From: a virus
Direction: 5' to 3' (one strand)
Length of the DNA: 60,380 nt
IMG/VR virus record: IMGVR_UViG_3300003322_000851
Span: 1-60,380 of that record
Every line of letters begins with the position of its first letter. The stretch's first letter is position 1. A program made the position numbers and the translations under genes. Positions 39,205-42,769 of the stretch are shown here, piece by piece. The notes under the pieces are model-generated. The model was given only the letters and a program-made list of their open reading frames with translations. It ran no database searches and was not told the origin of the DNA.

Positions 39205-39648
39205 ATGACTGTAATTGCATGGGATGGAAAAACACTAGCTGCTGATAAAAGATTTTCTTTGGGAAATGCAGTATTTATCACTAGTAAAATTTATAAAATT
39301 GTTAATTCTCAAGTATTTTTATGCGGGTTTTCGCACGACGCGTCCTCTGGTGAGGCAATGTTAGACTGGTTTGCTAAAGGATGTGATATAGAGCAATTCC
39401 CTTTATCACAAAGAGATAAAGAAACATGGTCTCCATTTTTAGCAATATCACAAGATGGGAGTATTCTAAGATACGAAAGAACCCCTTATCCGATTAAATT
39501 ACTGCCTCAAAAAATAGCAATAGGAAGCGGTGGAGATTTTGCCATGGCGGCAATGCATTGCGGTAAAACAGCTCAAGAGGCCGTAGAAATTGCTTGTTTG
39601 TATGATGCTACTTGTGGGGATGGGGTTGATTATCTGACTCATGATTAG
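39205..39648 (+). CDS. Phage proteasome-beta/HslV-like Ntn hydrolase
   Basis: MTVIAWDGKTLAADKRFSLG is the N-terminus of the proteasome-beta/HslV-type family: Thr2 would become the N-terminal nucleophile after Met removal, with Asp18-Lys/Arg in LAADKR behind it. The middle (FLCGFSHDASSGEAMLDWF) and the end (IAIGSGGDFAMAAMHCGKTA, EIACLYDATCGDGV) keep the known family blocks. Short phage members of about 150 residues exist, usually near the terminase genes; their substrate is unknown. The gene has its own terminator-like hairpin, so it forms a separate unit before the terminase genes. Confidence 0.75.
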   Translation: MTVIAWDGKTLAADKRFSLGNAVFITSKIYKIVNSQVFLCGFSHDASSGEAMLDWFAKGCDIEQFPLSQRDKETWSPFLAISQDGSILRYERTPYPIKLLPQKIAIGSGGDFAMAAMHCGKTAQEAVEIACLYDATCGDGVDYLTHD

Positions 39649-39804: not shown

Positions 39805-40395
39805 ATGGATGATGAAAAAGTTGCAAAGCAATTAGCTGTGCTTGAGAAGGTGAAGGACATTGGATATTTCAAATCCTTTAGTCCTTACCATTACTCAACC
39901 TATTCAAATAGGTTAAAGAAGCCTTTTGAATTTCTTGAAGAGGTTGGGATTGAGAAGGTCACAGAGTTGGTGCAGCATGGGTTTTGCATAACGAAGATAT
40001 GCCAATTACTAGGTATATCGGTATTTGTATTCAGACGCTGGATGCAAAGCGATCCTTACTATGAATCTGAGATTCAATCAGCTGAGGAGTTTAGCGCTGA
40101 CCATCTTGTTTACAAAGCGGAGAAAGCTATCAAGAGTGCGGATAGTGAGAGCCGATTTGACATTACCAAGAAAGTCGAATTAGCTAAGCACTATCGTTGG
40201 GCGGCCTCAAAATTAAACAAAAAGAAGTATGGTAGACAGGTTGAGGAAAAGCAAATCAACAATGGCCAGCAAGTGATCTACAACATTGATCTTGGTGGCA
40301 AGAAGACCACGGATACTACGGTTATTGATGTTGAACCTATTTCTGTAAAAAAGAATAAAGATAACGTATTCGGCATAAGTGAAAATGTCGGATAA
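39805..40395 (+). CDS. terS: Terminase small subunit
   Basis: A 196-residue protein with a helix-turn-helix (VTELVQHGFCITKICQLLGI, then FRRWMQSDP) and the C-terminal KVELAKHYRWAASKLNKKKY block usual for small terminases of the Sf6/P22 type. It should recognise phage DNA and start headful packaging with TerL. Its stop overlaps the start of the large subunit. The pac site is expected in or near this gene but cannot be seen. Confidence 0.85.
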   Translation: MDDEKVAKQLAVLEKVKDIGYFKSFSPYHYSTYSNRLKKPFEFLEEVGIEKVTELVQHGFCITKICQLLGISVFVFRRWMQSDPYYESEIQSAEEFSADHLVYKAEKAIKSADSESRFDITKKVELAKHYRWAASKLNKKKYGRQVEEKQINNGQQVIYNIDLGGKKTTDTTVIDVEPISVKKNKDNVFGISENVG

Positions 40396-42769
40396 TATAA
40401 AAACCATCAGCTACATTGCTGAACCTACGGCGCAAGCATTCCATCAAGACGATAGATTCTTTCGTGTTCTAAAAGGGCCGGTTGGCTGTCTTCCAGCGGA
40501 TTCAGAGTTTCTCACTCCGTCAGGATGGAAGAGAATGGACTCCTACCAGGAAGGAGTTGATCTTTGTGCTCAATGGAACCCAGTAACCAATACCATCGAG
40601 TTTGTTCCACCTTCCGCTTATATTGTAGAGCCATGTGAGGAATTTATCCGCTTTTCCTCTGGTTCATTAGTAATGGAATTATCAGAGGAGCACCGTGTTC
40701 CGCACTGGGACTGGAAAGGTGACTTTGTTGTAAAAACGGCTAAAGAAATAGAGCATAGCCCTTCAAGAAGGAAAATCCCAACCACTTTTTGTGGACCGGA
40801 TAGCGATAGTTTAGGGATGTCCGAAGATTTGATCCGTTTTGCTGTAATGATGCACGCAGATGGGCATTATCTTGCTTCATGCAAGACGGCTGTGGTCTCT
40901 TTGAGAAAGCAACGAAAGAAAGATAGGTTGCGTGAATTATTGAAGAGACTCGATATTCGTTGGACTGAAAATATTCACAAAGCACGTCCAATGGAAACTA
41001 TTTTTTCTTTTGATCCCCCCTATAGAGGAAAACGTTTTACTGGAAAATGGTGGAGTGCTTCTTATAAAGAATTAAGAATCATATTGGATGAACTAAAATA
41101 TTGGGATGGATTGGCAGGCATTGATGGCTGCCATGAGGAAACTCGATATTATTCATCACACAAAGAAGACGCTGAGTTTATTCAATATGCCTCTCATGCA
41201 GTTGGACGACGCGCCACTATAAGAATTGATGATACTCAAGATGAGAGATGGGCTCCATGCTACATAGTACAGCTCTTCAAACAAGATGGGCCGAAGAATG
41301 TAGCCTCTATCCGAGAGCATACACTTATTTCTCGTATCCCATCCCAAGATGGGGGGAAGTATTGTTTTACAGTTCCTAGTGGCTTTTTCATAGCTCGCTG
41401 TGAAGGGTCTATTTTTGTTACGGGAAATTGCGGTAAATCCTCTGCATGTGTCATGGACATCATGTATCGTGGATTTGTTCATCCGCCTGGGCCTGATGGT
41501 GTGCGGCGTCCTAGGTGGGTAATTATCCGAGCTACTTATGGTGAGCTAAAAGCCACTACGATTCCTACATGGAATATGTGGGTACCTTCTTCAATATGCA
41601 CGGTTGTATACGATTCGCCTATTCGAGCGCGTGTTCAGCAAAAGTTAGGGGATGGCACTGAACTGGATATGGAGGTTCTTTTTTTGGCATTGGACAGAGA
41701 AGAAGATGCCGAGAAACTCAAATCCTTCGAAGTGACTGGCGCATGGCTGAATGAAGCCAGTGAATTAACATGGACAGTGTTTCAATATCTTTCTGGGCGT
41801 GTAGGTCGGTGGAACCCAGATAAAGATGATGTAAAGCGTTGGCGTGGGATTATTGCGGATACTAACCCGCCACGAACGACTCACTGGTTGTATAACCTCT
41901 TTGAAGAAAAAGAGGTGCCGCCTGAGATTAAAATGTACACATACCCTCCTGCAGTGTACTTTGACCACGCTACGAAGAAATGGGAAGTTAATCCTGATGC
42001 TGAAAACCTTCGTTGGTTAAAACCATCTGGGGTTGAGTATTATAGACAACAATTAGTCTCTGGGTCTGATGACTATATCCGCGTGATGCTTGCGGGCGAA
42101 TACGGAATGACCCGTATTGGGAAACCTGTATTTCCTCAATATGCCGAAAAGGACCATGTAGCGAAAGAGGTTATCCGTCCTGACCCTGGTATGCCATTAT
42201 TGATAGGGTTCGACTTTGGGCTTAATCCTGCAGCAGTATTTGCGCAAATGACACAGCGTGGGGGTTTAAGGATATTGGATGTTTTAATACCTGCAGATGA
42301 GAGCTTGGAAGATTTTGTAGACGATTATGTTTTACCACTTATCCAGAAAAAATATCCTCGTTACAAAATATACTGTGTTGGCGATCCCGCAGCACGTGGA
42401 CGTTCAGGGCTGGATAAACGAACTCCTTTTGATGTGTTGATGTCTCGAAACATACGGTGTATCCCTGCGCCAACCAATAGCTTTGTCCCACGCAAAGAGG
42501 CTGTAGATTTCTTTCTGAATAAGATTGATGGATTAAAAATTGACCCATCATTAACCTATCTTAGAGAAGCATTTGGCGGAGGGTATGTATACGGAATTAT
42601 TCGTGGAGATACTTCTCGTCATAAAGAGCGCCCTGAAAAAAACCACTATTCTCATGGCATGGATGCCGTACAATATGTTGCTTTACACGTGAGAAGCGGT
42701 AGTGGAGCTATTAAGCGCTCATCGAGAGAAAACATAATGGATAAAGCCAAAAAGTTTCTTTGGGCATAA
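40385..42769 (+). CDS. terL: Terminase large subunit, interrupted by an intein
   Basis: The precursor of about 794 residues is DNA-packaging ATPase and nuclease. Without the intein (40487-41428) it is about 480 residues, normal for TerL. The Walker A loop is split as GPVG-[intein]-CGKSS; Walker B/catalytic Glu lies in TGAWLNEASE; the nuclease acids lie in IGFDFGLNP, VGDPAARG and HGMDAVQYVA. ATG 40385 overlaps the terS stop; GTG 40379 is possible. The mature motor is inactive until the intein is removed, because the ATP-binding loop is cut by it. Confidence 0.95.
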   Translation: MSDNIKTISYIAEPTAQAFHQDDRFFRVLKGPVGCLPADSEFLTPSGWKRMDSYQEGVDLCAQWNPVTNTIEFVPPSAYIVEPCEEFIRFSSGSLVMELSEEHRVPHWDWKGDFVVKTAKEIEHSPSRRKIPTTFCGPDSDSLGMSEDLIRFAVMMHADGHYLASCKTAVVSLRKQRKKDRLRELLKRLDIRWTENIHKARPMETIFSFDPPYRGKRFTGKWWSASYKELRIILDELKYWDGLAGIDGCHEETRYYSSHKEDAEFIQYASHAVGRRATIRIDDTQDERWAPCYIVQLFKQDGPKNVASIREHTLISRIPSQDGGKYCFTVPSGFFIARCEGSIFVTGNCGKSSACVMDIMYRGFVHPPGPDGVRRPRWVIIRATYGELKATTIPTWNMWVPSSICTVVYDSPIRARVQQKLGDGTELDMEVLFLALDREEDAEKLKSFEVTGAWLNEASELTWTVFQYLSGRVGRWNPDKDDVKRWRGIIADTNPPRTTHWLYNLFEEKEVPPEIKMYTYPPAVYFDHATKKWEVNPDAENLRWLKPSGVEYYRQQLVSGSDDYIRVMLAGEYGMTRIGKPVFPQYAEKDHVAKEVIRPDPGMPLLIGFDFGLNPAAVFAQMTQRGGLRILDVLIPADESLEDFVDDYVLPLIQKKYPRYKIYCVGDPAARGRSGLDKRTPFDVLMSRNIRCIPAPTNSFVPRKEAVDFFLNKIDGLKIDPSLTYLREAFGGGYVYGIIRGDTSRHKERPEKNHYSHGMDAVQYVALHVRSGSGAIKRSSRENIMDKAKKFLWA
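40487..41428 (+). mobile_element. Intein in the terL ATP-binding loop, 314 aa
   Basis: The insert starts with Cys (CLPADSEFLTPSGWKRM), the usual intein N-block, has a B-block-like ELSEEHRVPHW with the His, and ends FVTGN before Cys+1 of the extein (CGKSS), so Cys1, Asn-terminal and Cys+1 are in place. The residue before the last Asn is Gly where His is more common. The middle has LIRFAVMMHADGHYL and WDGLAGIDGC, two LAGLIDADG-like motifs, so it probably carries a homing endonuclease domain, perhaps degenerate. The host gene is read through without frame change. Confidence 0.93.

Follow-up and report, generated by a model that had tools for sequence, protein, structure and literature searches.

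The window analysed here is the whole of a 60,380-nt stretch of viral DNA (IMG/VR record IMGVR_UViG_3300003322_000851). On its forward strand it carries a gene for the large terminase subunit (TerL) whose ATP-binding loop is split by an in-frame insert. The genes and segments at the locus are as follows.

39805..40395, forward strand: gene for an Sf6-like small terminase subunit (PF20901, E = 2e-9; phrog_1482), its 3′ end overlapping the TerL start
40379..42769, forward strand: TerL precursor open reading frame, 796 aa, with a GTG start and an alternative ATG at 40385
40379..40486, forward strand: N-extein, 36 residues, ending in FFRVLKGPVG; contiguous in empty homologues
40475-40486, forward strand: GPVG, the first half of the Walker A motif, at the end of the N-extein
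40487..41428, forward strand: intein, 314 residues (precursor residues 37-350), starting with CLPADSEFLTP and ending in GSIFVTGN
41429..42766, forward strand: C-extein, 446 residues, starting with CGKSSACV and containing the second Walker A half (phrog_2, E = 4e-24)
41429-41431, forward strand: Cys+1, the first C-extein residue
50507-52501, downstream of TerL: portal/head-tail adaptor match

The features of a large terminase are present, namely the Walker A motif, the TerL profile match and the small-subunit gene upstream. An HslV-family peptidase-like protein is encoded at 39205-39648, upstream of the small terminase gene (phrog_1040, E = 2e-30). The insert lies between GPVG and CGKSS, at exactly the coordinates given in the original prediction. 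Joined without it, the exteins read GPVGCGKSS, which is a normal Walker A motif, and the predicted spliced TerL has a length of 482 aa from the GTG (480 from the ATG), in good agreement with the product of about 480 residues that had been forecast. The TerL motifs 3′ of the insert are intact in the C-extein. No second TerL was found in a search across the 60-kb record, which is possibly a fragment. As the intein splits the P-loop of the only TerL found there, packaging almost certainly requires prior splicing. In an AlphaFold model of the full precursor the insert is flanked by a strand and a helix, the arrangement that a P-loop should show; the pTM of this model was low (0.49), and we did not rely on the relative placement of the domains.

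Fold, relatives and conserved residues of the insert

Searches of Pfam and NCBIfam with the window intein gave zero matches, and a single-sequence search of the PDB gave no convincing match. To get past these failed searches we built a family alignment. Using tblastn, full-length relatives (query 1-314, about 23–33% identity) were found in many cultured phages, where the host proteins are annotated as PhoH, primase/helicase, RtcB-type RNA ligase, RecD-like helicase, ribonucleotide reductase and TerL. Among them are Acinetobacter phage AM24, Escherichia phage 19-1-2 and Pseudomonas phage PS119XW, whose homologues are ∼28–33% identical to the window intein. The cultured-phage homologues (PhoH, primase/helicase, RtcB, TerL) mostly share its local Gly↓Ser/Thr/Cys junction (↓ marks the insertion site), but they are more distant, sit in other host proteins and are usually annotated by the host protein only or as hypothetical. 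Mycobacteriophage Switzer (gp56) is another carrier of a relative. IMG/VR yielded more than 130 loci, which were thinned to 109 representatives at <95% identity.

The window intein was modelled with AlphaFold on an alignment of 94 of these representatives, with a mean pLDDT of 96 and a pTM of 0.92. The predicted structure has the HINT fold. Its top Foldseek matches in the PDB were the TliVMA, PI-PfuI and PI-SceI inteins (best E 6.5e-13), with intron endonucleases, I-DmoI among them, coming next; the structure prediction that had been proposed as a check is thus in accordance with an intein. PI-SceI, PI-PfuI and TliVMA have the same architecture of a HINT domain with a two-motif LAGLIDADG domain, but they are only ∼8–12% identical to the window intein and reside in other host proteins, and the second motif of the window intein is degenerate (WDG). 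A profile of the 94-sequence alignment matched the AceL NrdHF intein (E = 2e-9), and LAGLIDADG_3 matched 25 of the 94 family members. The original prediction had taken the lack of an intein profile match as grounds for giving it up. Taken literally, this is what Pfam and NCBIfam returned for the window sequence, yet the family profile and the predicted fold outweigh it.

The following features were assigned within the intein.

40487..40489, forward strand: Cys1 (block A:1), presumed first nucleophile; in 109 of 109 representatives
40682..40693, forward strand: block B SxxH, Ser66-His69; His69 invariant, aligned with the SxxH of AceL NrdHF
40802..41325 (approximate limits), forward strand: LAGLIDADG endonuclease domain, intein residues 106-279, from the AlphaFold model, Foldseek and conservation
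40847..40867, forward strand: first LAGLIDADG motif, MMHADGH, with Asp125; Asp in 107 and Glu in 2 of 109
40916..40918, forward strand: Lys144, the block D lysine; 109 of 109
41102..41110, forward strand: WDG with Asp207, assigned as the core of the second LAGLIDADG motif; Asp in 107 of 109
41111..41128, forward strand: LAGIDG, intein residues 209-214, a variable loop
41363..41365, forward strand: Cys293, the block F:4 cysteine; 109 of 109, and also kept by all aligned phage inteins of the tblastn-only set
41420..41428, forward strand: Thr312-Gly313-Asn314, the end of block G; Gly and Asn in 109 of 109, Thr in 89 and Ser in 20

Cys1, Trp14, His69 (block B:10), Lys144, Trp206, Tyr292, Cys293, Phe294, Gly313 and Asn314 were invariant in the 109 representatives, although the invariance of Tyr-Cys-Phe arises partly by selection, since YCF was in the pattern of two scans. 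Position G:5 was Thr or Ser throughout. The full-length relatives in many phages, together with the invariant residues, show that the insert is not a chance sequence. The residues expected of an intein are all in place: the block B His (His69) and, as had been claimed, Cys1, Asn314 (preceded by Gly) and Cys+1.

Two LAGLIDADG-like motifs had been proposed, HADGHY and LAGIDG. The former stands as the first motif and contains Asp125. We rejected LAGIDG as the second, as its last three residues (212-214) are gaps in 107 of the 109 relatives. Since Asp207 is kept in as many, the alignment instead assigns the second motif to ..DE...WDG, so that each of the two motifs carries a conserved acid. Together with the fold and the relatives, this confirms the insert in the TerL P-loop as an intein that includes a LAGLIDADG endonuclease domain.

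Splicing class and proposed chemistry

Cys1, which points to class 1, is present in the window intein and in all 109 representatives. The definition of class 3 includes the lack of a nucleophile at position 1 (PMC7891396). The positions of the class 3 WCT triplet are occupied by Val71, Cys293 and Thr312, so that two of the three residues agree and the Trp at B:12 is missing, as it is in at least 107 of the 109 family members. We rejected class 3 membership on the basis of Cys1 and the missing B:12 Trp. Judged by these residues, Cys1 is the more likely first nucleophile, and we infer a class-1-type intein.

The closest solved sequence relative of the family is the AceL NrdHF intein (PDB 6ZGQ; PMC7891396). 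It has the block F Cys, the block G Thr and the block B SxxH in common with the window intein, and both are without the B:12 Trp and the penultimate His. AceL NrdHF is also missing the usual His residues (PMC7891396). They differ in that AceL NrdHF has Ala1 and Met at B:12, whereas the window intein has Cys1 and Val at B:12. Furthermore, AceL NrdHF is a split intein whose halves are separated by a GIY-YIG gene, whereas the window intein is contiguous and contains a LAGLIDADG domain.

An alternative is that splicing happens but is initiated as in class 3, with the block F Cys293 rather than Cys1 attacking first. The conservation of Cys293 and Thr312 would fit this, as would the fact that AceL NrdHF is class 3 without the WCT Trp (PMC7891396) and the existence of a relative with Ala1 (L024). 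However, an invariant Cys1 would be unexpected were this residue dispensable, and B:12 holds Val instead of the class 3 Trp. We therefore consider such an initiation rather unlikely. The clade of the window intein may bridge class 1 and class 3. The relative with Ala1 is found in the ribonucleotide reductase of Corynebacterium phage Darwin; it keeps the block F Cys and is class 3 in appearance.

In the class-1-type course, which we favour, the TerL gene would be translated as a 796-aa precursor. The first step would most likely be an attack of Cys1 on the Gly-Cys bond, after which the N-extein would be transferred to Cys+1. Asn314 would then cyclise without the help of a penultimate His, and the product would be the 482-aa TerL with its Walker A motif intact. 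The penultimate Gly had been pointed out as a departure from the common His, but it is no oddity. It is the rule in this family (109 of 109), and in the mycobacteriophage RDF intein the native penultimate Gly splices faster than a Gly-to-His variant (PMC5050341).

Mobility and insertion-site preference

A single-sequence search for relatives of the TerL found none; an alignment query recovered them. The five closest carriers, which were found first, are 52–60% identical to the window intein and 32–37% identical to the C-extein. Judged by the C-extein, 79 of the 80 closest TerLs are empty at the site of the window intein, and these mostly read GP[VIF]GSGKS. A TerL tree comprising 38 rows with the intein and 71 without requires 10 changes of the intein trait, at least 8 of them forced by well-supported branches. 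On this tree the sister of the window TerL, L035 (48% identity), carries no intein. In the tree of the inteins, a supported clade with 16 members, all from TerLs, contains the window intein. Two further TerLs, L214 with and L056 without the intein, are near-identical, with ∼88–89% nucleotide identity on both sides of the site, and the L214 intein separates precisely the GGT and TCT codons that directly follow one another in L056. Thus, these are in-frame insertions into an otherwise contiguous homologous protein.

The endonuclease domain is under purifying selection in the relatives of the window intein, with dN/dS values of ∼0.04–0.12 in related pairs that do not include the window intein itself. 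This is consistent with site-specific DNA cleavage. A scan of genome contigs with a narrow six-sequence alignment found no relative, although so narrow a pattern may miss relatives in bacterial chromosomes.

The host proteins of the 109 representatives fall into 20 clusters, which by Pfam include TerL, SNF2-type helicase, RecD-like helicase, DnaB, RecA, RtcB and DNA polymerase III delta-prime/clamp loader. Loci entered the set through their intein sequence, irrespective of host, so the search itself does not dictate this distribution. One clamp-loader gene (L161) carries an apparent second intein further downstream besides the family intein; the PF14890 match in its C-extein apparently stems from this other intein, and we left it out of the evidence. 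The family occupies unrelated genes, most close TerLs are empty, and near-identical TerLs differ in its presence. By these sequence comparisons the pattern is that of a mobile element, which has moved by horizontal transfer between TerLs and across unrelated proteins.

At the junctions of the representatives, position -1 is Gly in 107, +1 is Ser, Thr or Cys in all, and +2 is Gly in 97. Of the 109, 88 are in P-loops that read G↓[STC]xK[STDG]. Three observations bear on what sets the site. Eight insertions in RtcB (L136, L152, L190, L191, L194, L237, L250 and L254) lie at G(V/Y/S)DIG↓CG, outside any P-loop, and two others, at G↓SGLGK[ST], are shifted two residues upstream inside the P-loop. Another TerL type has offset variants (L134, L217, L221 and L223), and there the insert is always directly before Ser, as in YGGAAG↓SGKS of L134 versus YGG↓SAGGGKT of L221 and its relatives; the shifted ones read GG↓SAGGGKT or GG↓SPGGGKT. 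Taken together, these sites suggest that the position is set by the local sequence rather than by the ATP-binding function. In four intein-bearing TerLs (L227, L230, L235 and L236) the Walker A motif reads GPxGSGTS and is missing the usual Lys.

The first and second codon positions around the site are informative and the third almost uninformative. A homing-site consensus at the DNA level was not separable from these data, as constraint on the protein and cleavage tolerant of wobble positions fit alike. The endonuclease probably targets alleles that lack the intein, cutting them at the codons for GPxG↓SGKS so that the intein is copied in, and the family would have spread to sites with a conserved Gly↓Ser/Thr/Cys-Gly stretch.

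It is conceivable, although we lean slightly against it, that these inteins form a generalist clade that has both nucleophile candidates and whose endonuclease and splice junctions tolerate any Gly↓Ser/Thr/Cys-Gly, and which could link classes 1 and 3. Such a clade would invade the P-loops of unrelated ATPases, track a shifted Gly↓Ser pair and enter the P-loop-free enzyme RtcB, and its clustering in P-loops would reflect the local target sequence and not selection for ATPase regulation. In the literature, which was covered in part, we found nothing specific on a generalist intein family.

Role of the intein in TerL and comparison with known systems

The insert is very probably a mobile HINT and LAGLIDADG intein that excises itself from TerL and homes, and that probably splices constitutively rather than acting as a regulatory gate. 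Splicing would be a prerequisite for packaging, yet probably a constitutive one.

The original prediction had instead seen a possible control point of the late stage in a splicing-gated packaging motor, where the intein is kept since conditional splicing times the activation of TerL. ATP binding by unspliced TerL is not expected, as its Walker A motif is disrupted, and another P-loop intein, DnaBi1 of M. smegmatis, splices conditionally (PMC6195587). Regulatory retention in TerL has been argued by Kelley et al. (PMC5050341), and the meeting of Cys1, Cys293 and Cys+1 at the active centre makes redox sensitivity conceivable. Nevertheless, the presence of the intein is sporadic among close TerLs, including the near-identical pair with and without it, and the same family is found in many unrelated proteins, among them replication proteins and RtcB. 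In addition, the endonuclease residues are conserved, and mycobacteriophage TerL inteins, when tested, splice efficiently (PMC5050341). The distribution argues against a control point specific to packaging, and we regard such a gate as improbable.

A decayed intein, which has lost splicing and leaves TerL inactive, is more improbable still: the window sequence has no curated profile match, but its frame is open, every splicing residue is retained, the TerL motifs 3′ of the insert are intact and no other TerL was found in the record. A permanent domain of TerL that is never removed would also be in frame and free of stop codons, but the split of the Walker A motif between Gly and Cys, the intein splice residues at either terminus and the predicted intein-type fold make its probability negligible.

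Inteins in the TerL P-loop are already known. P-loop TerL inteins, horizontal transfer, active endonucleases and the penultimate Gly have all been described in mycobacteriophages (PMC5050341), and TerL inteins are known from crAss-like phages as well (PMC7886860). The mycobacteriophage TerL1-a and -b inteins (Kelley et al., 2016, PMC5050341) reside, like the window intein, in the Walker A motif of a phage TerL, and the mycobacteriophage class 1 inteins likewise include members with a penultimate Gly (PMC5050341). The TerL1-a site is between the invariant P-loop Lys and Thr, with that of -b one residue away (PMC5050341), whereas the window insertion is between Gly and Cys, before GKS. The window site, GPVG↓CGKS, follows the fourth P-loop residue, three residues upstream of TerL1-a, and belongs to another TerL lineage.

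By itself the window intein is ordinary phage biology; the useful part is the surrounding family. It offers one intein lineage with many natural insertions in unrelated proteins, including close TerL alleles with and without the intein, so that the question of whether P-loop inteins reflect a switch or a target sequence becomes directly testable. Marker-gene searches for TerL should also take into account that the Walker A motif may be interrupted by an insert that goes unrecognised by current profile libraries.

Three TerL inteins of the same family are reduced. Those of Vibrio phage PWH3a-P1 (L010) and Klebsiella phage phi1_175008 (L022) are seemingly endonuclease-free, and in that of Escherichia phage Av-05 (L026) the endonuclease region is shortened. 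A close relative of these, L009 of Escherichia phage 19-1-2, has a full-length intein, and side by side the four appear to be stages of endonuclease decay. The L009 TerL is annotated in several pieces, of which the first contains the intein, and a free HNH homing endonuclease lies between later pieces. This suggests that the gene carries an intron besides the intein.
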